Assembly: GCA_002189035.1 (NCBI GenBank)
Contig: NEEC01000023.1
Coordinates: 806,001 to 870,000 of the forward strand
From: Utricularia gibba
Taxonomy: Eukaryota > Streptophyta > Magnoliopsida > Lamiales > Lentibulariaceae
Reading direction: 5' to 3'
DNA: 64,000 nucleotides
Every line of letters starts with the position of its first letter. Position 1 is the first letter of the stretch. Positions 1 through 59,559 of the stretch are shown in pieces. The notes under the pieces are model-generated. The model made no database searches. It saw only the letters and a list, made by a program, of their open reading frames with translations, and was not told the DNA's origin. The translations under genes were made by a program, and so were the position numbers.

Positions 1-3000
1 CAGTGGTTACACCAAAAGCCACATATGGCATGTACCTGAAGAGGATCACCACACAGACTTAGGAACAGTGCTCAGAAAACTAACTTCAATTGGTAAATGG
101 AAACTCAAGATGGATGCTCACCAAAACAAGACTAGAACATAAACTGCATTTCTGTAAAAGTTATAGAGTAACATGTATGCCATGCGCTGATAATTCCAGT
201 GTCCATGTACCAGCAACAGTGGCACCAAAAATCGGAATTGAGCCATAGCAAAGTCTGATGCCATGACAGCCTGCCTTCCTTCTTGTCCACTGATTCCAAT
301 GCCAACATCAGCCTTTTGAATCATTGAAACATCATTTGCACCTGAGATCAAATAAAAGTGAATCGGTTTCCAAATAGCAATTCGGATTAAGTTGTCAATG
401 TAAAGATGCATACCGTCTCCAATGGCAAGAGTCATATCAGCAGTTCTTTTTTTAACCAGGGCGACAATTCCTGCTTTCTGCAGTGGAGCCACACGGCAGC
501 ATAACACCACTGCACATTTGGTGGCTAACTCAAAAAGCTGCAGTAAAGATCAAAACACGTGAAGTTCTGCCCTTCTTTCCTCCATCATAGGTGGAGAGAA
601 CAAACAGATCAGCACATTACCTTCACCTCAAGTTCTGTGTCAAGAATATGAACAAGGCTTGTTCCATCAATGATTAATGCAAAGTCATTGCTAGTTTCGG
701 TATCAGGAGCATTACTCGGTACCCTCTCTAGTATAAGCAGCAAAGAGTCTTCTATGAGCTTTCTACATGACTCCTTTGAGTTACTGTTTATCAATATCTG
801 AATCATTTGTCTAGTCAACAGCCTAGAAGAAAACCCAATGGAAATCGCTGTTTCTTGTTTGTCACCTGTTAAAACCCACACTTTTATAGCAGCCATCCTG
901 AGGGACTCGATCGCCTCCGGAACGCCTTGCTGCAACTTGTCCTCAATACCAGATGCACCTAATATGCTAGGATGATTTTCTATATTGTTGGCTACACTTT
1001 TTAGCAAAGCTGCACGCCCCAGTAAGGCTGAGGTTGCTGATTCATAAGATGACTGCCACTCCTCAAACTCCGGCAAACTCAATTCCCTCTTACCAATTAC
1101 AAGGGTGCGCAGGCCCTTTGAGGAGTAAGCATGAATATGATCCTTAGTGGCGTTCAAAATGTCCATGTTGGAGGAGGTATCCGCCACACTGAACATTGAT
1201 ACATCAGCTCCCTTAATGAACACTTTCACAGTCCCATCAGGGCATCCTAAAACGACTGACATCCTCTTCCGGTTACTATCGAACTCGTGCATACCTAGAA
1301 CATTGAACCTGTATGGATCAGTGGTAAGTATGACTAGAAGATCAGTTCTAGCAAAACTCCCCTCTAAAGATAGAAATAAAACTTTCATTCACCTCTTCCT
1401 GTTACCCTGAATGTCAATCTGTATGTAACCTGAAGTACGCTCCACAAGCATAAAACCATAGGTGGCGGCTGCATACACCAAAGCCTGCTCATCAGGAGAC
1501 TCCCCCTGATATTCTATTAATCTGAGTTCTGGGACAGATGTGCCAACACTTACAGGCACAATTGTGTTACAAGCAGCCAACGCTAGAAAAAAGTCGTGAA
1601 CATGTCTGCCTTCTGTGCTATCTGATCTTGATAGTACGAGAAGTCTCTGATCAACTTTTACAGTCACCTTTGGCTTGAGCACAACCCCATCAACTACAAC
1701 CAATAAAAAAAACTCTGGGTGAATACATCTTCGGAAATATACAAAAACAGGGGAAGAAGAACAATGATGCATAATGGTTTACCTTCAACGGAGTACCCTG
1801 TAGCGAAATCTTCAATACTCGCTTCTCCATTGTTGTAATCTATTCCTCCAATGGATGCACATTGAAACTCCATCTTGTTCTCGGTCAACGTACCAGTTTT
1901 ATCAGAGAACACATATTTTATCTGTCCCAAATCTTCATTTATGTTCAAGGCCCTACACTGAAACCTTGAGTTGGTGGATTCATCAAACATACTCTTATCT
2001 TGCACCATGAAATATGCTTGACCAAGACGAATAAGCTCCATGGATATGTACAAGGCTATTGGAATCATGACTTGGAAGACAATGATGGCCATGAGTAAAT
2101 CAAATAATATGTTCAGGAAGCCAGAATAATAGTCATAGTTTTCGCCAGACTCATCGCTGGAGTAGTCCATTTTCCTGAAAAACTGCATCAGGTTCAACTC
2201 TTCACTGTGCTTCTGCAGCCAAACACCATAGCAGGTGCAGACTATCACACACAGAACAACAAGGAAAATGGAAAGGTAAATTATTTCTCTGTTCATACGA
2301 CTCTCAAGACGGCTTCGTTTTGAAGGAGCCCCGGAGTTATTAAGCATTGCTTTAGTCTCTTTACCGCAGTAGACAGCAACCCCAATCACCCACTCAGTAT
2401 TCTTCAACTCACAGCCACGCAGAATGATATTGGAAGGTCCCAAGGAGGCAAGCTTTCCCTCAATACTCATGTTTGCATGAAAACCATAAATGTTTCTGTT
2501 TGGCTTTTCACACTTGATCACCCCACTAATTCCCCCTCTGGAGTTCCTATCTGAGTCTCTTGCTTCGCATATCGCGCCTTTAAATTCGACTCCCCATCCA
2601 AATTTGCAGTCTGAACATAAGCTACACCAGTAGAGTCACTAGTGGAAAGCAACACCATGTCACAAGGAATAGTTTCGTTTTTTAAAACTTTTATGATATC
2701 TCCCACACATATCTCCTTCCATTTTTTCGGCTGGAACTGATCTTCAGAAAGCACAAAAGCCAAACGCCTGTTCTCAAACTTGTCTGACCTGTGTCTCCTG
2801 TAATCCTCATATCCATCCTTGACGGCAGAAACAATAAGCACAAAGGCTAAAGGAATAAGGGAAACGCCTCTGCCAAAAACAGCAAGCTGGGGAAGCTGAT
2901 TCAGAACTGCAATCAATAGAAAGTATACATATGCAACACGCCGAAACTGCTCGAATAAATTCCGGGGCAAGAAACTCAGGATGGAATACTTAGATGTCTT

Positions 3001-3246
3001 TATATTGTTTACTGGATAATCAAACTTGTCGTTCGTTCTTCGTGGATCATTTATATAGACCAATCTTGCATCGTCATCATTGATCTCTTTGTTAGAGGCG
3101 GAGCGCCCACCTGAATCCACAGCCCTTGCAGATTTGGATCCAAAATCACTGACGATTATCCCCTTGACGTAGTGAGAAGACAAGGCCCTAAAATCTGCAT
3201 CTTGATGAGGGCTTTCATTAATTTCATTCTGGGCATATGCGTCCAT
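1..3246 (-). CDS. ALA1: Phospholipid-transporting P4-ATPase, ALA1-like (partial, 3' end outside window)
   Basis: P4-type flippase expected to move aminophospholipids across the plasma membrane at the cost of ATP. I read six exons: 3246-1783, 1693-1393, 1308-621, 537-414, 341-122 and 35-1 (cut by the window edge). Visible in order: the N-terminal [13 protein letters not shown] and first membrane pair, the actuator [31 protein letters not shown] before the phosphorylation motif [11 protein letters not shown] (about 1880-1910), [24 protein letters not shown], and [11 protein letters not shown]. The order matches Arabidopsis ALA1 closely. The start at 3246 is the first ATG of the long first exon. 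Oddities: the frame breaks at a C5 run (2532-2536), where one extra base would join GTPEG to [12 protein letters not shown], and the 342-413 intron is 72 nt long with no stop. The C-terminal membrane segments lie left of the window. Confidence 0.93.
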
Positions 3247-4256
3247 CCAGGAAGATAGCTAAAATAAAGGAATCGATAAAACTAAAGAGCGAGGCCAAAT
3301 AAAAAATGGATCTTGTGGGTAGTTGCAGGATCCCAAGCCGGGAAACTCTCTGGGGATTTCAAATTTCATATCAAACAACGGCAGAAAAACACCAAGACCT
3401 GAAAGCCATGTCATATAATGCCCACAAGAATCGCCACAGGCTATCGCTCATTTCAATCGATACTTGAAGAAGCAAAGTGTGGCCCGGATAACGATAAAGC
3501 AATCTCAACCCACAAAAAGCAACGGCACAACAAAAAAGCTTGAAAGAGCCAAAGTCAATCTCTTAGTGAAGAAGAATCCGAGCGCCATAAGAAATGGAGG
3601 TCAAAACCCATCATTTTGTTTCCCAGGAAGATGATCCAGGCGCAGACTCTATCCTGCTCCTGCTCTTGTATCCGTATACACTAAGAACGCCATTTTCAAA
3701 AGGTCAAAGAGGAGATTAAAAGACAGGGAAAACAAGGTGGGATGGAGTTGGCGTAGGTGGCCGGAAAGAATGGTGAGCGTTGGATCGCTCTGACCAAACA
3801 TGAGCTGTGAAAACTTGCAATGCGGAACTGTAAGAAAGTCGTCGGCTTCGCTCAGCATCCGACCCTGCTGCACTCTGTTTCTAGAAGCCCAGAAGGAGTG
3901 ATGAGGTATGGCGCCAAGCATCTTCGCCCTCGCAGTTTAATGTTAATTGCAGTACAAAATGCAACGAACCAGAGACACGTGTCCGTAAAGCATTGGAGGT
4001 GAGAAGTCAACGATTGCACTTCAGTTACGAACACACGTGTGCTCCCTAACAAGTTATTAATCACCTGAATTTTCATTTCAAGAATATTCCATTTTATATT
4101 ATTATCTTAATATAATAATAAAATGGTTGACTTCGTGTGTGTCGGGGGCAAATGTGTACTTATCCACAAATATCATCCTCTTACACGAAAATCGCCTTTT
4201 TTTTTTCTTTTTTTTTAATCTTATCGTGTTCCCAGGCTCTCACCACAGAAAAGAGG
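3247..4256. promoter_or_regulatory. Divergent intergenic region ALA1 / aminopeptidase P
   Basis: About 1 kb between two divergent starts, so it should hold both 5' UTRs and promoters. I see no supported gene. An A/T-rich imperfect palindrome lies at 4089-4126 (arms CCATTTTAT...ATAAAATGG). A T-rich stretch at 4198-4216 precedes the likely 5' leader of the + gene. Confidence 0.5.
4089..4126. repeat. A/T-rich inverted repeat
   Basis: CCATTTTATATTATTAT on the left pairs with ATAATAATAAAATGG on the right, apart from a two-base AT bulge, around a loop of about six bases. It is read directly from the sequence. It could extrude as a hairpin or be a remnant of a small element; no function is shown. 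Confidence 0.6.
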
Positions 4257-7200
4257 ATGCTCTCGCCGTGCTCCTTGGAGCTTCGTTCTTGCGCGCGTTT
4301 CGGCTTCTTCACATACTGCCCCGGATTCCTTGGTAATTATATTTTCCTCCCCAGAATTTCCCAGAGGCTTCACACTCGCCCCGGACTCCGATTATCCGCA
4401 TCCATAACTGCGAAGCCCTCATCGGAGTTCAGGAAGAAGAAACCTACACGCTTAGGAAATGACGATGATAAGATCCCCGCCCTACGAGACCTCTTTCGCA
4501 AGCCAAACATCAACCTTGATGCTTACATCATTCCCTCTCAAGATGCTCACCAGGTTTCTTTTTAATGAATCCTTCGGATACTACCAGTGGCTTTGTTAAT
4601 TTTATAGAATCTTTCTTCGTCGCGCGTTTTTTTTTTTTTTTTTGTGTCATTTGCCAATGGGGATTCATCTGCCATTTGCAGAGCGAGTTCATCGCTGACT
4701 GTTACTCAAGGAGAGCATATATATCGGGTTTTACTGGGAGTGCAGGCACAGCTGTGGTCACAAAAGATAAAGCCGCACTGTGGACAGATGGACGCTATTT
4801 CCTCCAGGTCAAAACCGCTCAATGCTATGCTTCTCCAGGTAGCAGCAGTTCTTACTTAATCATGCTAAAAATGCTTTCTTTTGATAAACAGGCTGAAAAA
4901 CAATTGCATTCGAGTTGGATTCTCATGAGAGCTGGTAATTTAGGAGTCCCATCTCCCGGTGAGTGGCTTAACGATGTTCTGGAACCTGGTTCCCGGATAG
5001 GAATAGATCCAGTGAGTGAGCTTTCTGGTTCCTGTGCTGCATAATCTTATGTGCAAATTTCGTATTTACCAGAACAAACTGAAATCACTGAAAGACTACT
5101 TGGAGATATTTTCTTTTAAGTTCCAGTTGCAGAACATTGAAGAGAATTCTAATACCAGAAACCTTCTGTTGGTTTCTGTGAAGGATCCAGTTCCTGTTTT
5201 CTTCCGATGCTGCAGAGGAACTAGAGCAAGTAATCTCTCTGAAGAATCATGAGCTGGTCTACTTGTATGGTGTGAACCTAGTGGATGAGATATGGAAGGA
5301 GTCTAGACCAAACCCCCCAATAATCATGTCAGAATACATGACCTCAGGTATGCGGGTGTAGATGTATCATCAAAGTTGACATCATTGAGAACTGAACTAA
5401 GGAATGCTGGCGCATCTGCGATTGTCATCTCTATGTTGGATGAAATAGCCTGGCTACTGAACCTGGTAATTCTCTGATATTTGGAATCTTCTAAAAAAAA
5501 TCTTATGATATCCATGTAATTTACCTCAGGGAAAATAGAAGGTTTGATTTTTGTCATTGTAAAATGTCTGATAGATTATTGCAATGAGTCCATATTGTTG
5601 TAATGATGCTGCTTTTTTTCTGGCAGAGAGGCAGTGATGTGCCACATTCTCCAGTCGCCTATGCATATTTGATTGTAGAGCTTGATGGAGCAAAATTGTT
5701 TATTGATGATGCTAAAATTGGACCTGAAGTGAATCAATATCTGAAGAATGCTGGGGTTGAGACAAGAGCTTATGGGGACATTCTTTCTGAAATTGAAAGG
5801 TAATTAGAAAATTCAGCAGCCTTACCGTTCTTCAGTGGTCTGGTTAATTGGCATACCTTTCCATCAGCAATTGAAAAGTACCCTGTTCTGCATAGGTAAT
5901 TACCATGTTGAATGCAGGAGTGGCCTTTGTTTTTCAACACAAAAAATTCGCATACACAGGCATTGCAAAATAGTAAAATGGGAACAACAAGCAAAACGTT
6001 TTGTTTAGAGTATGTGGTGGGACAATAATATCGCTACATGATTCGTTCACTGAGAAGTTGTATTGCCATCACTTTTTTGATACAGGTTGGCTGCAAAAGG
6101 GGAGTCCCTGTTGTTTGACAAGTCATCTGTTAGTGCTGCTGTAGCCAAAACGTTCATATTGGCCTGCGATAAATACTCAGGATCAAAGAGATTTGATAAT
6201 GTCGACAGAGTACCTGCAGTTTTATACAAAAACTCACCTGTTTCTCTTGCGAAAGCTGTGAAAAATGAAGCTGAGTTGGAAGGGATGCGCCAGGCACATC
6301 TAAGGTCAGTGCCTGATGTAGCCGGTTTCCGTACAATGACACATCCTATCTTGAATATGATAAATAGGATCGTAAAGGAACTGATAACAACTGTGCATTT
6401 ATACCAGAAATGACCATGCGAGGACTGACAAGTAAGAACTGATCTTTTACAGGGATGCAGCAGCTCTTGCAAAGTTTTGGGCTTGGCTTGAGGAGGAAAT
6501 CGGTAGCGGAGCAGTGTTGACAGAAGCGGATGTTGCCAACAAACTCAATTATTTTCGTTCTATGCAGGATGGGTTTTTGGAAACAAGTTTTGATACTATA
6601 AGTGGTACTTCATCTCATCTTTGGATAAATGCATAATGCCGGCAGTATAAAATGGGTGTCCACAACTCAAAATATACTACTGTTTGTTTTCTTCTTTTAA
6701 GATTCATTTTATTCATGATCTCTTGATGCACAAATAACAGTGTAATTATCGTGCCCTCAGTTTCTGCTTCATATTAGCAACAATGAGATTCATGTATTTC
6801 TGCATTCCTTGCATGCTTCCATTGGCTCTCCATGCATAAAAGGGATGATAAGCTTATCAGTGAATATTCAGTGAGCTGCATTTTCGAGCCCAAATTTCCT
6901 CTTAATCTGCTTCTCAGTTCACCCACTAGGATCAGTGGATCTCTCACAAGGGACTTTTATTTCGTTAAATTCCATCTGTTTTTTTTTTTTAATCTTTGAA
7001 CATCTTCTTGGGTACTGTTTTCTATTTGCAATCATAAACATTGTAGGAAATCTCAAAATTGACCGCTTGTTGTGGTGTCATATTTCATTTTTAAGTGCAT
7101 AATAGGTGAGAGATTCTCACAGTCTTTACTTTACAGCCTCTGGAGCCAATGGGGCTATCATCCATTACAAACCAGAACCTGGGAGTTGCAGCGTTGTTGA

Positions 7201-8502
7201 AATTGATAAACTTTTCCTACTTGACAGTGGAGCCCAATATATAGATGGAACGACAGATGTTACCCGGACAGCACACTTTGGTCAACCTTCTGCGTGGGAG
7301 AAGGAATGCTTCACAAGGGTCCTAAAGGTACTTTTGCATTACTAGCTTTCGGGGTTAGGTTGAGGGTGGGTACCTGAGAGACCAAAAAAAAATCGTTGCA
7401 AGCTATATCCAGATATATACCAACTATTTTGTAGCTGAAAACGCATGTAATATTTGAGACATCTTCCAGGGTCATATTGCTCTTGATCAAGCCATTTTTC
7501 CTGAAAACTGCCCTGGTTTTGTATTGGATGCCTTTGCAAGATCATCATTGTGGAAGATAGGCCTTGATTATCGCCATGGTACGTACTTGTGTGCTCCACG
7601 TGAAGATTAATGCATATACAATTGCTTGTTGATTTTTTTTTCCTCCAAATCTAGGTACTGGTCATGGTGTAGGAGCTGCTCTGAATGTCCATGAAGGCCC
7701 TCAAAGTATCAGCTATCGGTACGGTAACACGACTGCATTGCTCAAAGGCATGATTGTCAGCAATGAGCCTGGGTACTATGAAGATCATGCTTTTGGCATC
7801 AGGATTGAAGTATGTTGTATTCTTTGCTTCCTTTTTCGATACTCCTTCCCAGTTGTCAATTCCTGTTTTTTAGACTGTTAATTTTTCTTTTTCAAGTTGG
7901 CCTCTCCAGTGGCTGGTACTCAAGTGCATGACATTTTTCTTTCATTTTGCTATATTTGTCCTTCAGAACCTCTCCAGTGGCTGGTACTCAAGTGCATGAC
8001 ATTTTTCTTTCATTTTGCTATATTTGTCCTTCAGAACCTGCTCTGTGTCAAAGAGGCCTGTACACCAAATCGATATGGGGGAGTGGGATACCTCTGCTTT
8101 GAAAAGCTCACGTTTGTTCCAATACAGGTGAAGGCTAGAACTTAGTTATTTTGTCACATATGTGTTAGCCCAAGTGTGCTTACCCTCGCCATGCTCATGT
8201 TCTCGTGATGTCTGCAGACAAAATTGGTGGATATATCTTTACTCTCACCAACAGAGCTGCAGTGGCTGAATGATTACCACAAGCAAGTTTGGGAGAAGGT
8301 CAGTCATCTTTTTTTAACGTCATCTCCACCATAACACGTAAATTCTGGGCTTGGTGGTTGACATGGCAGTTTCATCTTAGCTTCAGATATCTGTGTTGAT
8401 TGATTTTGAAAATTGGATTCTGGCTTGCAGGTTTCTCCATTGCTTGAGGGTTCCGCGTACCAATGGCTCCAGAAGAACACACAACCAGTTCTGATGACTT
8501 AG
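4257..8502 (+). CDS. APP2: Xaa-Pro aminopeptidase P, chloroplast APP2 type
   Basis: Metallopeptidase that removes an N-terminal residue preceding proline. Thirteen exons: 4257-4553, 4682-4807, 4892-5011, 5191-5465, 5627-5799, 6086-6304, 6453-6604, 7137-7327, 7470-7578, 7655-7809, 8035-8127, 8218-8298 and 8431-8502, giving about 687 residues once one missing base is allowed. The N-terminal ~70 residues are basic and Ser/Arg-rich, like a transit peptide. They are followed by [35 protein letters not shown] and WTDGRYFLQ. The C-terminal pita-bread fold has [18 protein letters not shown] (metal Asp), [15 protein letters not shown] (metal His), NEPGYY and GYLCFEKLT. The start is the ATG at 4257, in frame with exon 1. 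Oddities: a one-base deletion at 5311-5318 (A3C6) breaks RPNPP from [12 protein letters not shown], and a 68-bp duplication in the tenth intron copies the acceptor. Confidence 0.92.
7901..8036 (+). repeat. 68-bp perfect tandem duplication in an aminopeptidase intron
   Basis: Positions 7901-7968 and 7969-8036 are identical. Each copy ends in the polypyrimidine tract and TTCAG acceptor used before the exon encoding [16 protein letters not shown]. The functional acceptor must be the second copy (AG at 8033-8034). Using the first (AG 7965-7966) would add 68 nt and shift the frame. Confidence 0.95.
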
Positions 8503-11955: not shown

Positions 11956-13081
11956 ATTGTGAGAAAAAGGGTGTTGTGTATCAGATGTATGCGGATGCTG
12001 TGTGTATCATTCATCAAAGTCATGGCTTCTTCTTCCATGCGTTGGAAAATCCAGACGCATGTTTAACAGTTTCTTCATTTGCAATTATCATGTTTTCTGT
12101 TCACACGGCCGCGCAGGAGGTCGGAGGGGTCCCTGCGTCCTTCTTCTAGATAATTTACATTAGAAAAATAGTTAGTTAATTCCTGTACTTGACTTGCGCG
12201 TGTGTAAGTGGAGCCCGTAAACGCGCCGGCGTCACCACCGTTCTGGAAATGCCACTGTGCGCTGCTACTAAACCATCCACAGCCACGATCCCGGCAACAT
12301 GCGTAGCAATTGTAGAAGTATTCGGCAGTGAAGTGAAGCTCCATAAAACCTTCCCTTTGGCCATAAATGACGCCATCTCCGGCGAAAGAGGGACAAGCGC
12401 GGGAAGTCAGGAGACAACATCTCCACAGCACGTAGTCGTTTCCCAGTTTTCCAGCTAATGCCACATCGTATTCACCGCCTTCCTCTCCGTCGTAGAAGTC
12501 CCCATAACAGTGACAGAAGGAAATGGGCAATGAGGAAGCACGGAATACCAGAGGTTGTCGAGATGAGGAAGAGGAATCCTCTATCACAGTCCCCTCCAGG
12601 ACAGAGGCATGTCTGATTATGGATATGTAGTGAAATGCCATGCTTATGCTTATTAGGGTATATTTAGTGATTTCCGGAAATGCTGATATTGTTTTCTGGA
12701 AATCATTTTTATTTTTTCGGAAATGACTTTTATTCTTGAATTTATATGTCACTGAAACCATTTTAAGGAAATTGAATTTTCTCGTGGAAACTTATTAACG
12801 GAATCCACGTCAGCATTTTCAGAAATTACTAAATATGGCGTGAAGGTAGCGTGACGGGGGAGAGATGAAGATCGGGAGACAAAAACCATGATTTCCGACA
12901 GAGCGTGGCGGGAATTAACCCGCCGCCAATACAGAAGACGACAGCGCAGCTCGCGGCGGTACGTGGCCGAAAGGCCGTCACCATGCATTAGTTTGACGGT
13001 AAACTTTCTCCTCGGGCCAGTTTTCCGACAGCGACGCAGCGTCCGCTCTGATATGCCTGCCCCTTCCCGGGCCGACACTGT
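11956..13081. other. 3' UTR and intergenic region containing a MITE-like repeat
   Basis: Holds the 3' UTR of the heparanase-like gene and, at 12660-12836, an inverted-repeat element. Two long adjoining open frames run on the minus strand (12075-12761 and 12749-13465). They show no family motif, cross the repeat and the IMP4 promoter elements, and overlap the end of the preceding gene, so I do not call them genes. Confidence 0.5.
12660..12836. mobile_element. MITE-like element with 27-bp terminal inverted repeats
   Basis: The left arm 12660-12686 (ATATTTAGTGATTTC...) and the reverse complement of the right arm 12810-12836 (ATATTTAGTAATTTC...) match at 24 of 27 positions. The 123-bp interior is A/T-rich, non-coding, and holds further TTC(C/T)GGAAAT-like units. 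Size and structure fit a non-autonomous DNA transposon. I cannot see a clean target-site duplication, so the superfamily is unassigned. Confidence 0.55.
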
Positions 13082-13249
13082 TGGGCCATATGTGATCGGA
13101 ATATTTATCAGGCCCAATAAGAATTGGACTACCCTTTTTGTCTTCAAGCCCGTGTTATGGAAATGATAGGGAGCCAATAGCAAGGATTCTCCGCATCGTT
13201 GCCGCCATCGCAACTCGCTGGAATCCCGGTAGTGAAGCCTAAACCCTAA
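13082..13249 (+). promoter_or_regulatory. Site II elements and telo-box upstream of IMP4
   Basis: TGGGCC at 13082-13087, its reverse GGCCCA at 13111-13116, and the telo-box AAACCCTAA at 13241-13249 lie 420-580 bp before the IMP4 start. Telo-box plus site II is the known arrangement in plant ribosome-biogenesis and ribosomal-protein promoters, matching the gene they precede. Confidence 0.65.
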
Positions 13250-15356: not shown

Positions 15357-15486
15357 CGAGTTTTGGTATCGAGTGGGCTGATGCGTTGCATTACAATTTG
15401 GGGTGCATTTGCCCCATCCTGTTAGAACGCAAACCGCGTGCTTCTACTATTTATCCACTCCTTTCGACAAGAACGAAAAAAAAATA

Positions 15487-45858: not shown

Positions 45859-46330
45859 ATGGCCACTATACCGCAGTAGTAATTGAATGTCTAAGTAGAG
45901 CAGTTCATCTTTTTGGTATTGTTGTTACTATGACCTGTTGGCTTGTCTATATTGATGAAATAATGCATCTCTCTTTGCCCCACATATCAAAGTTGGTGCC
46001 TTGGAGATTTTTGTTGCCATGGGGATGCAAAAACCACAAAAGCAGATGGGGGATGGTGAACAGGGAAAAGGCTAAAGACCACGCCTTTGCTGAAATGGCA
46101 AGCATTATCTACAGCCATCCCCTGTCTGATGCTCCCTCCTGTGGAAGCCATTCAAAACTGAGTTGAGTACAAGCAAGGAATCTAGAGTCATATAACAGTG
46201 ATGAATGAACCAGAGAATGATGAGAAATCCTTGTAAACTTGCTGGTTCTTCTGAATTTATGTGCTGGAACCTATATGGATTTAACATCCCCTCCTTATTC
46301 AGCAGACATTGCAGAGACTACAAGTGGAGT
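45859..46330. other. Convergent 3' region thaumatin-like / NFD4-like
   Basis: 472 bp between facing stops, so both 3' UTRs. Nothing else seen. Confidence 0.5.
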
Positions 46331-48208
46331 TCAATCCCGAGGCTGAGGCACTACCGGTGCTTCCTTCTCGGTCCGCTCGTCATAGATCTTCTGATAAACG
46401 CCCCTGGTTCTAAAGGATAACAGGAGGTCCAATCCAAACCCAACCACGCAGGCGATGGCCATAACAACATAAACGAGGCGGTAGCAGTGGGCACCGAAAC
46501 AGGTGTTACCTCCTTCGGCAGTTCGTGTGGCCTGGGAGTCGTACAGAAACCCGGCAAGTAAGCCGGAGAAGAGGAAGGAGCCGAGTGGGAGGTTGAGGAT
46601 GAGAATGTTGTAGACAAGTCCGTAGAACTTGAGGCCAAAGAGCTCCGAGGCTGTAGGGACGGTGATGGCGAGACGGAAGCCGTAACAGATTCCAACGACG
46701 ATGGAGCCGACGTAGAGCGATCCCGGCAGGGCCACCGCCATGAGGACGTAACCGACCGCCATGAGAATTTGTGAGGCTGCGTTCCATATCGGCCTCGGGG
46801 TCCCCGCTCGCCTACACGCCACAACCCCCCAATACAAAAATTAGTAATTGGAGGTGCAATGAGAAATCTATTTATAAAAAGGGCCGGCGGCCGGCAATCA
46901 CGTGCCGGGCTCAGAAGAATGAGAAAAATTCACTTTACACAAAAATCAGTGCCGGAGAAGACGAAGTGGAGAAAAAAGGGGCTCACTTGATGAAGAATTC
47001 TGAAAGCGATCCCGACAAAATTCGGCCGAAGAATCCCCAGATGCTCGTCAACGACACGAAAATGGAGACATCGGAGTATCCCATCGCGACGCCCATTTGC
47101 CCTAGATTGTTCATAACCGTCAGCCCGGTGCCCACTCCGCACAAGAACGACGTGAACAAGATCCAGAAGTCCAGGCTCTTCAGAACCTCAACCACCGTGT
47201 GTTCTTCGCCGAGTACCGGCGGGCGTGCCCCCTTGACCTCGTCTGGAGTGCGCTGTTTCGCCGCCGCATCCTTCAAGAGTAGCGCCTCCCTGGCGTCCCT
47301 CTCGGTATCTGTGGATGGGGAGGAGGAGCGGAGGAAGTCTTTGACGGCGAGGTGAATCGGGATTGAGACGGGGGAGAGGAGTAGGATTACGAGTATTACG
47401 GCGAAGATTTGGGAGAAGAGGCGGCCGTGGGTGCCGGAGATGTCGTACCCTAGCAAATAGAGGGCGATCACGACTGAGAGGGTGTTGATGACCGCGAAGT
47501 ATTTGGTCTCTTGGGCGTCGGAGGACGACGACGGCGCTTCCCGGAGGAAAGCGATGGCAGTGAGGCAAACAAAGAAGGGAATAATTGCGAGCATGAGGAG
47601 GAACTTGGCCGGGTCGCTTGCGAATAGCGCAGAACAGAGATCCGTGAAAATGGCGGTGCTCAAGCCGATATACCCCTTGAGAATCCGGTGACGGGGCCGC
47701 GATTCTTACGGAAATTACGAAGGCAGGTTACCAGAACTGCGGTGTTCATCCACGTCGTGCTGTTTCCTCCCATACACAGAAACACACACATCTGAAATGG
47801 AAATCAAACCCTGAAAATTAACCCCAAGTCCAACCATGGGAGGGAGAAAGACCGTAACTACTATTGCGTCTGACTTACAGCCCAGTAGGGTAAGGGTTGA
47901 ATCCGGCGGCTGACGACGAGCCACTGAGCGCCGTAGCCGATGAATCCTTCAATGGCGCCGATTAAGAGTATGAGGGGGGTGGGGACGGTGTCGGATGCGA
48001 GGCCGGCGAGTAGACCGAAGGCCTTGCCCAGGTCCTTGGCGACGGAGAGGCTGTTGAGTTGCAATTGAGTGAGGGCCATGAGAGTCTTCAAGGCGTCGGA
48101 GTAGTTGGAGAAGGTGTAGTTGTTTCCCGAAATCGATTGCACCCAGAGGGCGGCGACGAGTCCCAGCCATTTCCCCGCAGTGGAGGCCGGCGCGAAGTTG
48201 AAGCCCAT
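46331..48208 (-). CDS. NFD4/nodulin-like major facilitator transporter
   Basis: Twelve-helix membrane transporter of the Nodulin-like/NUCLEAR FUSION DEFECTIVE 4 family; substrates are mostly unknown. Three exons, 48208-47879, 47791-46987 and 46811-46331, give about 538 residues if one base is restored. Exon 1 holds KWLGLVAALWVQSISGNNYT, VAKDLGKAFGLLAGLASD and LIGAIEGFIGYGAQWLVVSR, and joins to MCVFLCMGGNSTTWMNTAVL. Exon 2 has ten membrane-like stretches including DFWILFTSFLCGVGTGLTVM. Exon 3 has the conserved ASELFGLKFYGLVYNILILN and LPLGSFLFSGLLAGFLYD. Oddity: near 47678-47685 the reading passes out of frame between GPVTG and LKGYIGLSTAIFTDL, and one added base repairs it. It diverges from the kinase at 49141. 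Confidence 0.9.
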
Positions 48209-49140
48209 CTTGGTGGCGGCGGAGTTGCAGTAGTTCCTGGTTGGTTAGTTATTTAAAGATGATATTTTCGGACTCTCTTCTTCTTTAATTCCATCTAATT
48301 CAAGACCGGGACCGGGACCCGGACCCGGACCGGGTTGCTTATTTCCTTCCCTTAGGGCTCCGCGGCTCGGGACTTGGCAATTGGGAGGGGCAGGGCATCC
48401 TCCTCGTCCCATTTCTTTCTTTTTAATTGGCAAATAATGCTGGAAAGGGAAACGAGACAGGACTTATCATCCCAAAAGGTGCGATACGCAGGCGGACACG
48501 TCCCCTGTGGGCCCCGCCCAACGACTAACAACTTCAAATCCACTAGCGCTTACTTCACTATTCTCGACCCAGCCCAAATTATGTGGGCCGGAGCCTTCAA
48601 ATCCCGGCCCATTTAACAGACGCTTGCTTGTCTGCTGTTGGGCCGGCGCCTTTGACGCGTAATTAACGCCGTCCTCCGGAGGTGCAAAAACCGTTTGTCG
48701 GCGGGTCAGATTCTCCCGCCGGTCCTTCGCACGAACACGCCAACCACAATAAACATTAATTTTGTTCTCGGACCACCGACGATTCTCGTTAGTTAATGTA
48801 CAGACAAAGCTTTCGCTGTCCAGCCGTCCGGGCAGGCCATATTTCCTATTATTTTCTTTACCCACATGCCTGCTTCCTCATCGAAATAATGGAGATAAGA
48901 ATATGTTCCTTCTTCCTGACTAGTTCACCCATGATTTAGATATCAGAACCACTCGTTGGTTGTGGTCGTGGTGCTGTCTGCTTTCTTCTGCTCAAGTGTC
49001 GTTTCGGGACGGTTTCGCCTTCGATTGGGATTACTTAACAAGCACTTATACTTGCTTAAGGTGAACCTTTATAAACAATCCTTGATCTTCTTCTGGATTC
49101 GGGTTGTGCAATAAAATAAGCACCAGAGTTTCATGGAGAA
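48209..49140. promoter_or_regulatory. Divergent promoter region NFD4-like / USP-kinase
   Basis: Contains a CCGGGA/CCCGGA repeat block at about 48303-48334 and a cluster of site II motifs: TGGGCC at 48584-48589, GGCCCA at 48606-48611, and TGGGCC at 48639-48644. A three-codon upstream frame (ATG GAG AAA TGA at 49132) overlaps the first base of the kinase start codon region. No gene. Confidence 0.5.
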
Positions 49141-51759
49141 ATGACGGTTGCCAGAAGGAAAGTTGTTGTCGGCATAAAATACGATGAATGCTGCGCTAAC
49201 CAGCTGCTTCGCTGCGCACTCAACAATGTTGTGAAGCCCGGAGACGATGTTTTGGTCCTTCATATGTCTCCCAATTCGGGTACTTGTTACCTCCTACTCT
49301 TTCATTCTGTCTGAAACTTTGTTCCAAAGGTTCCAATTCCATGAGTGCAGGTTGTGTTTCCAAACGGAAGGCACTGTTGGATTGTCATATGCAAGAGTAC
49401 AAAAGCTTGTGCTCTGAGTTTCAGGTTCCTTTTCATGCTTCAATCTCTTTCCCATGTTTTTATCTTCTTCTTTTGAGATTGAATTATGGGGGTTTCCATA
49501 GGTTGATCTTAAGGTAGAGCTCTTGGTCGGAACTTCATACAGAAAGGTTCTTGTTAAGGAAGCAAATAAGAGATTAGCTTCTGCTGTCATTGTGGGAGTA
49601 ACTAAGCAAACTGCTCTCAGGTTACAGCTTTAGAACTGGTTTCTGTTCTTTGGGTTTCAGGTGATTTAAAGGATTGTTTTTTTTTTTTTTTTCTTCTGCA
49701 GGGGATGGGCATCAGTAGCTGTGTATTGCATCAAAATGCTACCTCGAGCTACTGACATTATCCTGATTTACGATGGGAAGATCGTATACCGCAGGTGTCC
49801 CCCTCTCGATTCGGAAGGTCTGGAGACGACTTCGAACTTGAAACAAGTTTTGAGCTTTGCAGGGCGGTCTGAAGACAAGGGTTTGGATAAATCTCAACAC
49901 CATGAAGCAGAAGGGCCAAAGATATGTGGCTACACCTCGGAAGAAAAAGCTGATGATCGGAAGGCGAAATACGAGACGCTGAGCGCCGTCGGACGGAGCA
50001 GGAGACGCGCGTTGACATGTGTTTCACTTCCACCGGAAGACTTCTCCCAGGAGATCCCTGGCTGGCCATTGCTTAGGACAGCGAGTTTAACCCCAACAAG
50101 GAGGACTGCGGAAGATGCTAGGAAGATGTCTGTGGTGAAATGGGCCATGAGCTTGCCAAGGCGTTCGCTCTCGATGGCAGCTGAGGCGATTGGGAGTGAT
50201 CTGGAATCCTGGGGAGATGAGACCTTGAAAGGCAGACAGCAGGAGGCGAACGATGAATTGAAGCTTACATTGATGAAAAAAGGCCTACGCTGCAAGGTTT
50301 TCAGCTACAACCTTCTCAAAAAAGCCACATCTTGCTTCTCAGCAGGTTGGTTACTCTTCCATCGACATCTTTATGGGTGCTCCTTTTCATGTTGTCTGAA
50401 AGCCGTCTGCTACTGAATCTATCAGAAAATTTGATTGGGAAGGGAGGATGTAACTCGGTGTACAAAGGAGTTCTCTCTGATGGCAAGAAGATTGCGGTGA
50501 AGGTCAGATTATCATCAAAAGAGGCACAGAAGGACTTCGCAAGGGAAGTTGATATAATGACTGCAGTTAGGCACAAGAGAATCACGCCCATTCTCGGGAT
50601 ATGCATCCACGACGATCACTTGATTTCTGTTTATGAGTTTTTAGCACGAGGAAACTTGGAGCAGAATCTCCAGGGTAAGTAAAGAACAAGGAAAAGGATC
50701 TGGAGTTTTTCTTTTTCTTACCTCCATTCATCTGCATTCAGGAAGAAACAGAAAGGAGAAAAGCTGTTCACTCCCGTGGAAAGCCAGATTCAAGATAGCC
50801 CATGGGATTGCACAAGCACTTGACTATCTGCACGGTGCAAGCCCCAACCCCATCATTCACAGAGACATCAAGTCTTCGAACATTCTACTGAATGATGACC
50901 TAGAACCACAGGTGCATACACTCGACATGTTTTCGTGTTGATCAAAAGCACCCTAAATGACCATTTTACCGGGTTGAACTTGGCGCAGCTTAGTGATTTT
51001 GGACTAGCAGTGTGGGGATCACGGTCATCACCTTTCTTGGTGGACACTGATGTAGCAGGGACATTTGGCTATCTTGCTCCCGAGTACCTGATGAATGGTG
51101 AAGTAAGCGAAAAGGTTGATGTATACTCTTACGGGGTAGTTCTTCTAGAACTGCTCTCTGGAAAGAAACCCATAAACTGTGACCCTACAAGAAGTGGAGA
51201 AAGCCTGGTGATGTGGGTAAGAAACAAGGACTAACTAGATTCGCATGTGTTCCAATCATTCATATGAAGCAGCAGTAACATAAGAGCTCACATATTTTTA
51301 CCAGGCAAGGCGTAAACTTGAAAGTGCTGATGTAAGGAGCATATTGGATCCAAAGCTGGATGGTAAGGTTGATGATGATCAAGTGCAGAAACTCGGTCGA
51401 GCAGCAAAACTATGTCTTGCACATGCTGCGAGGCTTCGTCCCCAAATGAACCAGGTAAGTTCAGTTCTGTAATGAATGCTTCAGGAAATGTTGAGCTGCA
51501 TCCCTCAAGCCATAGCTACGTATTATTTGTTTTGCTTCAGATCCTGTGTGTGCTGGAAGGGAAGGATGCACGGACGGGCGTCGAGAAAATAACTTGTGAT
51601 GATGATGAACTTTATCCGGACTCAAGCGTGGAATCACATATCAGTGTTGCATTTGTGGATGTAAACGAGGACTCTGAATCATGTATGAGCAGCAGCAGCC
51701 CTATCCGTATGGAGGATTATCTGAAGAGCAGATGGAGCAGGTCATCAAGTTTTGAGTAG
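49141..51759 (+). CDS. Receptor-like cytoplasmic kinase with N-terminal USP-like domain
   Basis: Soluble Ser/Thr kinase of the plant group that joins a universal-stress-protein (adenine nucleotide alpha-hydrolase-like) domain to a kinase. Nine exons: 49141-49279, 49351-49424, 49502-49620, 49702-50345, 50426-50674, 50742-50911, 50989-51216, 51305-51454 and 51541-51759, giving 663 residues. The USP part begins [20 protein letters not shown] and includes VLVLHM and [21 protein letters not shown] charged linker of about 200 residues follows. The kinase has [32 protein letters not shown] (VAIK-type Lys), [23 protein letters not shown] and [20 protein letters not shown], so all catalytic residues are present and it is an RD kinase. 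The C-terminal tail is Ser-rich. The ATG at 49141 follows a tiny upstream frame. It resembles At2g16750/At1g77280-type proteins. Confidence 0.92.
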
Positions 51760-51980
51760 TAGCATTCCTCCCTGATGAGGAGGAGGTCATGAAGGCATCA
51801 CGTTACTTCAATCAGTTCTGCCTCGTGGCGATAAATGCAAAGATAAAGCAAGCGTACAGAATAACTTCATACACAGATCAAATGAGATAGATCTTCAGAG
51901 TATCAACAAGGATTCTGGATAACATATGTACTTAGAAAGAAGAGCCTCAATCAATTGGAGTTCGAGAACCACCTAGAACG

Positions 51981-52719
51981 CTAAAATGATTTTTCATTAT
52001 CTCGAATGGTGCGAACCTCTTTTTCTTCCTCTGGAGTAAAGTCATCCTTTATGTTTAAGATCTTGCGAATTTCCTCCTTCCCGTTAGCACGCCGACCACG
52101 GGCTGGGCTGTCAGGCGCAGCATGCCTTGATACCTAGATAATCTGCAGCCTGAAAGGAAGTTTATCAGTAAAAAAAAGGGAATGCCAGCACTACCATGGA
52201 TTCTACTGCAGAAAGCATGAAAGAAAACGTTCAATGTGAAAATATTCAAAAAATGTACATTGAAAAAAATACTGAAATCAGCAACAGAACAAATGCATAT
52301 ACATGACCAAAAATCATGTCGAAAAACCACTTCAAAAATCAGAAACCATTGGAAACTTTGCAGAGTAAATAACAGGAATCAGAAGTACAAAAAAAAAAAA
52401 AAACAGGGAAGGGGGATAACGTACCCTGATCAGGGTAGACAGTGTTCCCCGATCAACCCTCACGAAATCACCATCGAAGGCTTTCAACTCCTCAGCCTCG
52501 ACATGAGGCTTGCATTACTCACTCACCTTGGCGAGAATCCTGGCGTTGACGTTGAGCATCGGAATGGCGTTTTCGGCACAGTTTATCCTCAATCATGGGA
52601 GGGCCTTATCGTGATCATCGATTCCAGCGCCCCGCCTCCTCCACCTCGAAGCACTTCCCATCGGAACTCTTCAGCAAGATCATCTTATGCGGCGCGGCGT
52701 CGGTCGATGATGATGCCAT
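51981..52719 (-). pseudogene. SKP1-like (ASK) pseudogene
   Basis: Decayed copy of SKP1, the SCF ubiquitin-ligase adaptor. Exon 1 (52719 to about 52425) starts MASSSTDAAPHKMILLKSSD and GKCFEVEEAG, then loses frame. In other frames it continues MIED, DNCAENAIPMLNVNARILAK, a TAA where the family has the Tyr of EYCK, CKPHVEAEELKAFDGDFV and RVDRGTLSTLI. After an intron of about 280 bp, exon 2 (about 52150-51981) reads ADYLGIKGML..., EEIRKILNIKDDFTPEEEKE and stops at 51981-51983, without the normal REN-WAFE ending. At least three frame changes and one internal stop are visible. The retained intron argues for a DNA-level duplicate rather than a retrocopy. Confidence 0.88.
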
Positions 52720-53598
52720 AGCTGTGCAAACTTGGATGGATCAGCTATGGATGTGTTCATTTCTCGTCACACGAAAACTAGGGCTGAGTTCATCCATGAA
52801 CATAATCAACAAAGGCACAGAAAGAATGGGTACCAATACAGGCCCAAAAAACATATAAAAAAGAAAGCAAGTGCACATTGGGCCCCACCATCCAGCCCTA
52901 ATGTGGTTGGGCTACATTTCGTGGGCTGAATAATATGGGCCGATGCCCAAAATCTTAGCCTAGGGAGAACGTTCGTAAGAGCCTTTCATAAGAAGCTCAA
53001 ATGGAAACCACAGCAATGGCCCAGAAAGGGATTTTTTTTTTTTTTACTTTTCAGGAAGGGATTTTTTTTTTAGAGGGGGTTGGCGGAAGTGATAGAATTC
53101 AAGTTAATTTTTTTGGGTCGTGAGGTTTCTTTCCTCAGCGTTATCGCGGCCACCGCCCTATCTTGTTCGCCGGCGTAATCCAAGGTTAGTTGCTTAGATG
53201 TTAACACAGCATGGATAGAGAATTTAGGGTTTGGAATTTAGTTTTCTGATGAAATTAATATGCATACTGCTTTCTTATTGGTAAAACTGATGCTGATTGT
53301 CTCTGGATGTCATGCGACTTTGTAGTTGGCCAATTGAAGAAACCACGTTGGTTACAATTCTATTTTTTTTTTTATGGTAGTGGAATTTTGGGGGAAAACT
53401 AATCCTCTCTGGATGTTAATGAGGGCTAGAAAGTTGTCTCATCATGATTTACGCGATTGGTGGAATCCAAATAAATTGTGATTCGTAAGCTTGTTCGCTC
53501 CTTTTGTTTCTGGTTTCGTTTCCTCCTCTAGTGATTTCAGTATTTTGTTCTCCTAACCGAAATTTGCACGGTAGTGCAGGTGAGGATTAGTGGGTGAT
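52720..53598. promoter_or_regulatory. Upstream region of the DNAJC17-like gene
   Basis: Holds GGGCCC- and TGGGCC-type site II motifs (for example 52937-52942), T-rich runs at 53032-53045 and 53063-53071, and probably a 5' leader with an intron (a GGTTAGTTG donor-like site near 53183 and a TGCAGGTGAG acceptor-like site near 53576). No other gene. Confidence 0.45.
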
Positions 53599-54655
53599 AT
53601 GGAGGCAGAAGTGGATCATTATTCTGTGCTGGGTCTGCCTTCTGGTGAAGAAAGTGCGAAGCTTTCTCATCAAGAGATCAACAAAGCTTTTAGATCTAAA
53701 GCCAGAGAGCTCCATCCCGACAAGAGACATGATGATCCTAAGGCGCATGAAAATTTTCAAAAGCTTCAAGCTTCTTATGAAATTCTCAAGGACGAAAAGG
53801 CCAGGAAGTTATTTGATGATCAACTGAAATTGCAAAGGGAGAAACTCAAGCGTCAAGAACAGCAAGACTCCAAGCGGCAGAAGATGATGTCTCATCTTGA
53901 TAGAAGAGAAAAATACTCATCTATTGATCCCAAGTTGAAGAAGCAGCAAGAGGAATTGGAAAGAACTTCTCGACAATTAAGAGAAGAATTACAAGGAATT
54001 CAAGCAATGCAGAAGGCTAAAAGGATGTCAGGCGCTACGGCATCAGCTAAAAAGGACACATCGGGTGTTGGAAAAGGAAATAAACGTGGCAGCGCTACAG
54101 ATTTGGACACCGAGAAGATTCTTAAAGTTTCATGGGAGAAGATTGGTCATGACTACACCGCACAGGCGCTGCGGGAAATTTTTGAAGAGTTTGGTGTTGT
54201 AGAGGATGTGGTAAAGCGGGACAGGAAAAGATCAGCTCTTGTAGTAATGGAATCCAAGGATGCTGCCGTAAGTATTTCTTACTATGTTTGTCGGCCAGTT
54301 CTTTTTTTTTTTTTTTTCCAGTTCTCATGAACGGTTCTTGGTGTTAGGTTGCGGCTGTGGGTATGGTCTTGGGCGATCTATCGAATCCACTTCTAATCAA
54401 ACCCTTTAAACCCATTTCTTCACCAGTTGTTTCTATCGATGAGAAAAATGAGTTAGATGGCCCAAACTTGAGCAGTGTCGTTGGTTCTGGATATCAGGCT
54501 TTTGAGAATTCAGTACTTGAGAAACTCAGAAAGGTCAGCAGTCTTGTTTGCGTATGATTTGTTTTCTTATTTTCTTTTTTGGAACCAGTCGAGGTAGTTT
54601 TGATTGGCTGGTTTTTTACTTTGTATCCTTGCAGGCTGCAGAGAAACAAAAATGA
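53599..54655 (+). CDS. DNAJC17: DnaJ homologue subfamily C member 17-like (J domain + RRM)
   Basis: Nuclear J-domain protein related to DNAJC17/Cwf23, linked to spliceosome function in animals and yeasts. Three exons, 53599-54267, 54348-54533 and 54635-54655, give 291 residues, the usual length. The J domain (residues 1-75) has HYSVLGLPSGEES, INKAFRSKARELHPDKRHDD with the HPD motif, and FQKLQASYEILKDEKARKLF. A long charged coiled coil (EEL...RQLREELQGIQAMQKAKR) leads to an RRM-like part, ILKVSWEKIGHDYTAQALRE to VVKRDRKRSALVVMESKDAA. The last exon encodes only AAEKQK. The open frame begins at 53590 with GTG; the real ATG is 53599. Confidence 0.93.
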
Positions 54656-55002
54656 TCATCTTGTGGGTGGGTAGTCAATGAAGGCTCTAAATCAGTCTTC
54701 CCATTAGTTATGAGGCGTATGTGTTGCGCTCTCGCTCTGTTGTCAGATGCGGACAAGGAAATCAAATCGGGTAAATTTGAAGAATGGCCATCTCTCTTTT
54801 TTTCTCTGTAAATGAGCAATCAAAACCCTTTGATACAACTCGTCCAATAGAAATGGCGTCCCGACTCCACAGCGGAGCGTATGAGCATCTAACTATGCGG
54901 ACAACGGCCAGTTCCTCCCTGAAACTACCCACTAGCTAGCTGCGCTACTGTCTTATTAGTTGTGCAACAACTACTGTCTTATTAGTTGTGGAATTCCAAC
55001 GC

Positions 55003-56039
55003 ATGCTCTTCATGGCCGGATTATTCCAACTGCTCCTCCTCCTCCTCATCCCATCCTTCTCCGCCGCAGCGCTGCCGTCAACGTGTCTCTCATCCTCCGC
55101 ACTCTTGCGAAGCTACGGAAACATGATCGACACATTCAAGATTTTCATTTACGCACCCACAGATCCTGTCGACTTTTCCGACGACACCGCCGACCTCTTC
55201 TACCACACCCTCCAACACAGTCCGTTTCTCACGGTGGACCCGGCCAGAGCCCACCTCTTTTTCGTACCCCTTCCCGGGGACGCCTCCGCTCGTTCTCTGG
55301 GACGCGTGGTCAGAGAAGTCAGGCACAATTTCCCCTTTTGGAATCGCACTCTCGGTTCCGACCATTTCTTCATATCGCCGGCGGGTATTGGCTTTTCCTC
55401 GGATCGGAATGTTTTAGAGCTGAAGAAGAATTCGATCCAGGTGTCGGTCTTCCCCGTTATCTCCTGTAACTTCATCCCCCACAAAGACGTTACCCTGCCT
55501 CCAATCGCCGCGTTTCCCCAGTTCTCGCCCCGGGGAATTCGACCGGAGCATTGTTTCTGGGTTACATGAACTGGGATGGAAAATCTGATGCCGCTTTGGT
55601 CAGGGAATTGAAGGCAGAGGAGGGTTTCTTGGTGGAGGAGAAGTCTGAACCTTTGACTTACATTCAGCGTGCTCAAGAGAGTAAATTCTGTTTATTTCTG
55701 TATCGCGGCGATTTGACTGGAATGACCGCAGCGATGGCGTCCGGCTGTGTTCCGGTGGTGATTGTGCACCGCCCCATCCAGGACTTGCCGTTGATGAAAA
55801 TCTTGCGGTGGTCCGATTTCGCATTGTTCGTGGCCGGCGGCGCAGATAGCTTGAAGCGGGTTCTGAACGGAGTGAGTGAAGACAAGTATGGGGAGATGAA
55901 GCAGTTGTGCAAAAGAGCAGCAACCCATTTGAGATGGAGCCGGGGCAGGGCTCCTGAGCCATTTGACGCCTTCCATATGGTGATGCATGAGCTCTGGCTC
56001 CGCCGCCACGCCGTCCGATACACCCGCCGCGATGCTTGA
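55003..56039 (+). CDS. Exostosin-family (GT47) glycosyltransferase, with one frameshift
   Basis: Type II Golgi glycosyltransferase of the plant exostosin/GT47 family, acting on cell-wall polysaccharides or glycoproteins. No intron is seen. Allowing one added base it encodes about 345 residues. A membrane anchor (MAGLFQLLLLLLIPSFSAAA) is followed by FKIFIYAPTDP, HSPFLTVDPARAHLFFVPLP, DHFFISPAG and PHKDVTLPPIAAFPQF. After the break it continues STGALFLGYMNWDGKS, then YIQRAQESKFCLFLYRGDLT, MTAAMASGCVPVVIVHRPIQ and DLPLMKILRWSDFALFVAGG, the family's nucleotide-sugar region. The frame changes within TCGCCCCGGGGAATTC (about 55525-55540). The first frame runs to a stop overlapping the second (55567-55569). 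Both halves are otherwise perfectly conserved in character, so a sequence error or a recent lesion is likelier than old decay. Confidence 0.85.
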
Positions 56040-56888
56040 TGATTACTTATGGCACATCACATGTCTGTGTTAGCTCTGCTTCCTCCTAATCTGTGGATTG
56101 AAATTTGAGTAACCCGTGCAGTGCGTGTTTCCATTCCATTCCATCATGTTCTTCATCTTCCTACTCCTACTCCTACTCCTACTGCTACTGTGTGGTACTG
56201 GTATTAGTGAGCTCTACTGAGAGGAGAGGCGAGCAGGCAGGCAGCTTCACTGCACTGTAGTCATCCAAGCCGTCGGAATTGGAGCAGCAGATGCTTGTTA
56301 GATAGGCAACAGGATTAGTGGGGGGGAGGGGAATCAAAATGTCGGCGCGGTACGTGAGCCGGAGCCCACAACGAATTAAAAGCAGAGAAACACAGGTAGA
56401 TGCATACAGCGGCTGATCCAACCCACACACAAACACACACACACACACACACACACGCACGCGAAGGAAGGAAGGAAGGAAGGAAGCTTCAAGCCTGCCT
56501 TCCAACAAATCCCGATTCTCCATGTCACAACACAAACAGCACAATTTTGCGTGGGAGAGATCTGGTTGGAGGCCGTGATTTGGCAGGACGAGGGGCGAAC
56601 CCGAAAGGAGGCCACCAATACTCGACTCGAGTTTATCCAATAATAATTTGTGACCATTTTGCCCTCCACGTGGCGACATTTCATTAGTTTGGCGCGAGGA
56701 AGCTTCTGAGGCCGACCCCAAGGCCAAGGGGAAGCCCGCCCACCCACCGCCCCCGGGATCCCCTCTCATATAACCTTTTTTATTTTCCGAATATCGATCG
56801 CTTAATTTGCGCCTTGGGCTGGATTTCTCCTCTCTTCCCCTTTTGCTGTTGTGTAATTAGGGTTCCTGATCGCTCGACTTGGAGATCC
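56040..56888. other. Intergenic region rich in simple repeats
   Basis: Contains (CTACTC)n at about 56159-56185, (AC)n at 56424-56456 and (GGAA)n at 56464-56485. It should hold the exostosin 3' UTR and the DSK2 promoter. No gene supported. Confidence 0.6.
56424..56485. repeat. (AC)n and (GGAA)n microsatellites
   Basis: A dinucleotide run of about 14 AC units, then CACGCACGCGA, then about five AAGG/GGAA units. Read directly. Confidence 0.9.
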
Positions 56889-59559
56889 ATGGGAGAGGAG
56901 CGAGAAGTTAAATTGAATTTGGGGAGGGGGAGGGGGAGCTCGTCAATCTCAATATTCGTTCCTCTAATGGTTCTAAGTTTTCGGTCAAAGCAAGCCTCGA
57001 TTCCACCGTCGGGGAATTCAAAATCTTGTTGGCCAACAATTGCGATGTTCCTGCCCAACAGCAGCGTCTGATCTACAAGGGTCGGATCTTGAAGGATGAC
57101 CAGACCTTAATCAGCTATGGTACTTTGTATTTTCTGTTAACCTAATTTTTTTTTTCTAGTTCAGCTGCTTTCTTGGCCATGATTTCAACAATAAGAATGA
57201 TAACAATGTCTTCTTCGATTTATCTGGAGGAAGGGAATGTTGCTCTAGATTTTCGTGTGTTCCCTGATCTCGCACCGAAAGAAAGGATAAAACTTTGTTG
57301 TTGACATAATGATCTTGGCAATTTCTTCTTTATCAGGGTTACAGACTGATCACACGGTTCACATGGTACGTGGTTCTGCACCTGTTACACCCCCTCCATC
57401 TGATGCTCCTTCAAGTGTAGGAAGTACGGGTAGTGTTCCCGCTACTGGTCAAGACCCCAATGCAGCGGTGACTGGACTACCTGGTACAGGCGCATCCCTC
57501 TTTCCGGATCTCAATTTAGGTTCGTTTGGGAGAGCCGGGGCTCCTGGATTGTTTGGAGCTGGGCTGCCCGACTTTGAACAGATGCAGCAACAACTGACTC
57601 AGAATCCCAACATGATGAGAGACATAATGAATATGCCTGCAGTTCAGAGCCTTATGAATAATCCTGAGATCATGCGCGGATTAATTATGAATAACCCTCA
57701 GATGCGTGAGATTATTGACCGAAATCCTGAGCTTGGTCACATCCTTAATGATCCTAGCATTCTTCGGCAGACACTAGAAGCTGCTAGGAACCCAGAAATC
57801 ATGCGTGAGATGATGCGAAACACTGACAGGGCAATGAGCAATCTTGAGTCCTCTCCAGAAGGATTTAACATGCTAAGACGTATGTATGAAAATGTCCAAG
57901 AACCTTTCATGAATGCAACAACAATGGGTGGTGCTACAGCTGCCTCCGGAGCAAATCCATTTTCAGCTCTTTTGGGAGGTCAAGCTGGTTCCCAACATAG
58001 AGATGGCTCTAATTCAATTCCTGGATCCGAAAATAATACAGGAGGAGATGTTGCTCCAAACTCTAACCCACTTCCAAACCCATGGAGCAATGGTAAGATA
58101 AACCGTGTTGCACATTCTTAATTTATTCTGTTTGTTGTTGTTTCATGAATCAGGAATGACCTTCAGAATCTGTGGGTTTTCCTCTTTTAAATTGCACACA
58201 ATCTTTTCAATATCTCAGTTGAATGGTTTTCCTGCTTCCATTTCACGTCTTGTGGTTGTTTTTTATTATTATTATTATTTACTCATCTTGTCCAGACAAT
58301 ATACTCCTGTTGTGCATGACATTTCAGAAAGAATAATTATTTAAACAACGGATTTTGTAGGAGCTCCTCAAGCAAACAGTGCTCCTAGAACCAACACAAG
58401 ATCGTCCAATGTCACCGGGTTGGGAGGACTTGGTCTACCCCAGTTAGGCGCTAGTGGAATGCCAGATCCATCTGCATTTAGTCAGTTATTACAAAATCCT
58501 GCTGTGGCACAGATGATGCAAAGCTTGCTTTCCAATCCTCAATATGTTGATCAAGTACTACAGCAACTTTGAGAATCATTCATCGTTTTTGTTTTTTGTT
58601 TTTTTGTTTTTTTTTTTACTTGGGTTTGTGTTCAAATCATGATCTATTGCAGGTTCTAGGTCTTAACCCTCAGCTTCGGAGCATGATGGATATGAATCCT
58701 CAATTAAGAGAAATGATGCAAAACCCTGAATTTCTACGAGAGTTGACCTCTCCTGCCACCATGCAGGTATTTCGGCTTTCATATCCACTTCATTTTCAAG
58801 TTGCCTTCCTGAGCCTACAGAACCCCAAACAGTGATGTTTTTAAGCCGTTTTCCAAGGTCTATGCATTACAAATTTGTGTTCAGTGCTTGTCTTTAGCAA
58901 GTCATACCAAGAGAAGTCTGTATGCTGACCTACTTGTGAACTTATTATCTCAGCAAATGCAAGCTCTGCAGCAACAACTTTCGCAGCTTAGTCAGCAGTC
59001 CCTGTGAGTTTCAAGAGTTCAGTTTTTTTTCTTTTTGTCTCCTTAATATATGAAGTTATGCGATGATTTCTGACCGTAATACTCCTCCATGCTTTTTTTT
59101 TTGTCAGAGATGGAGCTCAATCTAATCAAGTTAGAGGTACTACACTAGTAGTTTTTTAGAAGGGTCATGCATCAATTACAGTCAAGTATTTTAATCTGGA
59201 TCAATCATTTTGATGCACTTCAACTTCAGGTTCTCAAAACAACTTTGGTTTGGAGATGCTAATGAATATGTTCGGTGGACTTGGAGCTAACGGCCTGACC
59301 CCAAATCAAGCCAATGGTCGGCATTCTCACAACCTCCTTCATCATCCATGTTAAATCCTTTAGATGATGCTAACTTGTTAAATTGGTTTCGACCCTTGTC
59401 GCTCCTCCAGTGCCCCCTGAAGAGCTGTACGCAACTCAACTCTCCCAGCTTCAAGAGATGGGCTTCTTTGACACCCAAGAAAATATCAGAGCACTCCGAG
59501 CTACTTCCGGAAACGTTCATGCTGCAGTGGAACGCCTCCTCGGAAACCCTGGTCAGTAG
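56889..59559 (+). CDS. DSK2: Ubiquitin domain-containing protein DSK2 (ubiquilin)
   Basis: Shuttle factor that carries ubiquitylated proteins to the 26S proteasome and, in plants, to autophagy. Eight exons: 56889-57119, 57337-58092, 58361-58554, 58653-58766, 58954-59003, 59108-59136, 59230-59316 and 59411-59559, giving about 536 residues once one base is restored. The N-terminal ubiquitin-like domain reads [40 protein letters not shown] and [11 protein letters not shown]1 repeats follow: [20 protein letters not shown] and [20 protein letters not shown]. The UBA domain is [20 protein letters not shown] to [11 protein letters not shown]. The start [16 protein letters not shown] is out of frame with the ubiquitin-like domain unless one G is added in the GGGGA repeat at about 56922-56937; the alternative frame has a TAA just upstream, so no other ATG serves. 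Confidence 0.92.

Follow-up and report, generated by a model that had tools for sequence, protein, structure and literature searches.

Residual errors of PacBio assemblies made with HGAP and Quiver have been described in bacteria: the indels that remained in Streptomyces albus SM254 after Quiver were 'nearly all' in G or C homopolymers (PMC4832174), and single-base homopolymer deletions were noted after Quiver in Enterococcus faecium ATCC 700221 (PMC4888979). Gene-fragmenting errors of long reads have also been treated in the work on Kastor, where most indel errors of the Pss508 test assembly were false deletions after homopolymers of 2-8 (PMC12007338). The frame breaks reported here are similar to the latter in that false frameshifts come to resemble pseudogenes (PMC12007338); the Kastor errors, however, were more often at A/T runs (PMC12007338), whereas the runs at our breaks are of G or C only. 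The likeness to the S. albus SM254 and E. faecium ATCC 700221 errors lies in the single-base indels in homopolymers, but those cases are bacterial and were found via Illumina reads, whereas ours are in a plant and are inferred from reading frames.

The carnivorous plant Utricularia gibba has been studied because its genome is compact. We scanned an assembly of 100.09 Mb in 516 contigs, which we infer to be the PacBio/HGAP assembly of U. gibba (a PacBio assembly of the species was built with HGAP; PMC5793159), and analysed in it a stretch of 64,000 nucleotides, C411:806001-870000, referred to as the window; positions given without a contig are counted from its first base. The evidence on breaks in the window came from paralogs in the same genome, Pfam profiles and PDB homologues. 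Paralogs of the window genes are found on C505, C412 and C402, in duplicated blocks of the genome, and were compared with the window copies over about 11.6 kb of coding sequence using a symmetric frameshift aligner.

Five genes in the window each carry one frame break

The original prediction was that five genes, coding for ALA1, aminopeptidase P, an NFD4-like transporter, an exostosin and DSK2, are each interrupted by a single frame break, are otherwise conserved, and would each be repaired by exactly one added base. All five breaks were found at the predicted places, with no space for an intron, and the frame was open and conserved on both sides of each break over the stretches compared. No further breaks were detected in the window copies across the approximately 11.6 kb of coding sequence compared with paralogs. 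The repair by one added base held for four of the genes, by paralog, Pfam or solved homologue evidence, but not as stated for DSK2, which fits a surplus of two (or five) bases as well.

The ALA1-like P4-ATPase gene (1-3246, minus strand; its 3' end lies beyond the window) is one base short at a run of five C, or five G on the coding strand (2532-2536), by comparison with the intact paralogs on C412 and C402; these are 73-75% identical to it, keep one frame through the site and have one base more there, modulo 3. Against these paralogs, dN/dS came to 0.11-0.15 for the part upstream of the break and to 0.07-0.12 for the part downstream of it, with dS near saturation. Judged by these ratios, ALA1 is under purifying selection on either side of the break.

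In the aminopeptidase P gene (4257-8502, plus strand), presumably of the APP2-like, plastid type, the frame breaks at a run of six C (5313-5318). Solved aminopeptidases, including 4s2r, align in register across the joint once one missing base is allowed for, and the Creatinase_N_2 domain follows directly 3' of the break. From 4681 onward, 13 exon pieces were examined, and they are open apart from this break; a second candidate break, at about 5190, involved no shift and proved to be the end of an intron (5013-5190).

The break in the NFD4-like transporter gene (Nodulin-like/NFD4_C; 46330-48215, minus strand), near 47682, is placed at 47680-47685 by Pfam and by paralogs, and has no homopolymer of four or more. 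The two frames cover positions 98-134 and 135-250 of the Pfam Nodulin-like profile, with neither gap nor overlap, and comparison with each of four paralogs independently puts one missing base there. The exostosin GT47 gene (55003-56039, plus strand) breaks at CCCCGGGG, about 55529-55536, in a C4G4 context (55525-55540). Both halves match the same Pfam GT47 domain, and at CCCCGGGG the paralog on C505 is one base longer than the window copy. This paralog (C505:3333341-3333733) is itself decayed, with large deletions, and the window copy is the better preserved of the two.

The DSK2 (ubiquilin) gene (56889-59560, plus strand) is broken inside GGGGAGGGGGAGGGGG, in a G-rich stretch just 5' of the ubiquitin-like domain, at runs of the form G4-A-G5-A-G5 (56921-56936). 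An intact paralog is found at C505:3334226, against which one base too few and two (or five) too many fit alike; loss and gain are indistinguishable here because the C505 copy is without the G-rich repeat of the window. For this gene, 'exactly one added base' would thus be just the simplest reading. The dN/dS for DSK2 was 0.18-0.21.

Runs of G or C at the breaks

The prediction that four of the five breaks lie at homopolymers of at least four was borne out, against an expected 5% (P = 3e-5), but these runs are specifically of G or C, with runs of A or T at none of the five sites and no run at the NFD4-like site. The background was taken from about 21.8 kb of coding sequence, scored for a G/C or A/T run of at least four within 6 bases. 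By the same measure, 10 of 18 sites outside the window were near a G/C run (P = 3e-9, against the background of 5%), giving 14 of 23 for all sites. In contrast, A/T runs of at least four were found within 6 bases of none of the 23 breaks, with 8% expected from the coding background. At the NFD4-like site and at the remaining 8 of the 18 outside ones, any G/C run of at least four lies more than 6 bases from where the break was placed.

The common direction of the breaks had also been taken as evidence. All five are compatible with loss, but this is weak by itself: on the assumption that deletions make up three quarters of natural indels, P is ~0.24. In the coding sequence of the window (coding status judged by eye), the majority of G/C runs with five or more bases are intact, so that such a run adds to the risk of the error but is not enough for it, and the error is occasional. 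In the G/C run-length spectrum, no clear truncation was seen among run lengths up to 7.

The same lesion in GRAS and HSP70 genes

If the breaks were artefacts, essential genes of unrelated kinds in other parts of the genome would be predicted to carry the same lesion, one base short, at runs and with no other damage, and this was found. Breaks in GRAS genes, which are mostly intronless, and in HSP70 genes were listed wherever a profile match was taken up again in a different frame, either at once or after a very short gap. After introns, multi-lesion loci and ambiguous loci were dropped (the HSP70 genes on C241 and C304, the GRAS gene on C414 and the GRAS gene at C244:2105), a clean count of 16 breaks was left, 14 in GRAS and 2 in HSP70 genes. 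All 16 read as one base short. Ten of them were also placed against an intact paralog, with a gain equally allowed, and each of the ten gave one missing base. Ohnologs of window genes add two one-base-short breaks, in the PP2C gene on C505 and the DSK2 gene on C1, and in all the breaks recur on many contigs, in GRAS, HSP70, PP2C and DSK2 copies. The matched GRAS and HSP70 sequence amounts to about 79 kb, which gives a rate of about one break in 5 kb; in the window it is similar, with 5 breaks in an estimated 29 kb or so of coding sequence.

In several GRAS genes, among them a pair of close DELLA-type paralogs, the frame is lost within the conserved GGPP motif, exactly at the point at which a run of five to six C arises from its codons. 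In 20 sampled GRAS paralogs that read through the GGPP region, the run is interrupted or shorter through synonymous codons. Codon choice should be irrelevant to the death of a gene but relevant to the calling of run length.

The GRAS splits at C4:1155502 and C1:1229491 are both introns, and the C244 GRAS locus, with a step of 1 mod 3 that would suggest a one-base gain, has two separate one-base losses. The near-identical HSP70 pair on C241 and C304 (L112 and L113) has a common break at a run of five G, which the aligner reads as two surplus bases; we considered whether the two are replicate assemblies of one locus, but they are 99.3% identical over 2.5 kb and differ mainly by substitutions, as expected of diverged copies. 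A scan of UGT genes gave two seamless splits by coordinates alone, both with a step of 2 mod 3. Among P450 genes, no seamless splits were seen in the 92 scored of 269 candidates, too small a share to show absence.

Discussion

We consider it very probable, from the reading frames and their context, that the five breaks arose as errors in the consensus of a long-read assembly, the genes of the plant itself being unchanged. Single-molecule reads would under-call the length of short homopolymers, above all those of G or C; the polished consensus would sometimes settle one base short, and a coding sequence that is well conserved in all other respects would then appear with its frame broken once. 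The underlying reads presumably carry one base more at these sites. The original prediction had favoured systematic deletion error over pseudogenisation, and the 16 of 16 clean GRAS and HSP70 breaks and the two ohnolog breaks, all one base short, together with the selection on ALA1, support it; it is the test outside the window that turns this reading from supported to strong.

True duplicate pseudogenes are similar to the window genes in having a broken frame and a relative elsewhere in the genome, but those of this genome have several lesions, in both directions, and stops. An SKP1-like relic (52420-52720, minus strand) shows an in-frame TAA besides several shifts, which go in both directions, and by these features is a genuine pseudogene among genes that would be falsely broken; a DSK2 copy on C255 has shifts of +1, -2, -1 and +1. 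Within the stretches examined, each window gene has one break, without the several lesions or stops of a pseudogene, and dN/dS, which covered ALA1 and DSK2, gave no sign of relaxed selection in either. That the five are nonetheless recent true pseudogenes, or carry frameshift alleles truly present in the plant through slippage at G/C runs, seems to us very unlikely. A very recent event would also leave one lesion per gene, and single copies in the duplicated blocks (shared with C505, C412 and C402) could be expendable; but the 16 clean breaks are always one base short, none of the breaks is at an A/T run although such runs are commoner in the coding background, purifying selection flanks the ALA1 break, and the SKP1-like relic and the C255 DSK2 copy show what real decay looks like in this genome. 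It is likewise highly improbable that the plant itself undergoes frequent recent one-base losses at G/C runs of functional genes, through a replication-slippage mutator or widespread frameshift heterozygosity, such that part of the breaks are biological.

To two other readings we attach next to no probability. Real shifts might be corrected by programmed ribosomal or transcriptional slippage, for which the slippery runs are present, but the shift is not conserved: the two paralogs of ALA1, the four of the NFD4-like gene and that of DSK2 keep to a single frame across the site, as do the solved homologues of aminopeptidase P, and one mechanism would need to act on unrelated genes. The changes of frame might instead be unrecognised introns or exon ends, as the two GRAS introns met in the genome scan illustrate (C4:1155502 and C1:1229491). 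This is hardly credible for the window, where the conserved residues run on without spare sequence, NFD4-like Pfam position 134 being followed by 135, and where ALA1 and the exostosin are continuous against their paralogs. A natural gain of two or five bases in the GGGGGA repeat of DSK2 alone, with the rest of the set artefactual, is less remote but still unlikely. The aligner prefers two surplus bases against the C505 copy, from which the repeat is missing; on the other side, with three neighbouring runs of G, the error to be expected most often is the loss of one base, and selection persists over the rest of the gene, with a dN/dS of about 0.2.

Read as consensus errors, the five breaks are uninformative on the biology of the plant and of technical interest only. 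Gene counts and claims of gene loss would be distorted by a spurious break in roughly every 5-6 kb of coding sequence. If the assembly is the public U. gibba reference, automatic gene models would split or truncate many intact genes, and claims of gene loss or truncation would need a check against reads or transcripts. For U. gibba, 12 RNA-seq libraries and bisulfite data with a mean coverage of 26x have been described (PMC8333044). The GGPP motif of GRAS genes may be usable as an internal marker of the same error in similar assemblies.

Two further observations concern the window and the assembly. An element of 177 bp at 12660-12836 of the window carries terminal inverted repeats of 27 nt, which are 89% complementary; it has more than 20 relatives across the genome, at 72-87% identity, and looks like a member of a MITE family. 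Four of the roughly 25 contigs seen, C1 (8,500,000), C2 (6,192,500), C505 (3,452,500) and C507 (642,500), have lengths that are exact multiples of 2,500. C1 and C2 have plant telomere repeats at their start, and their far ends lie in ordinary sequence, as if cut at the border of a processing chunk.
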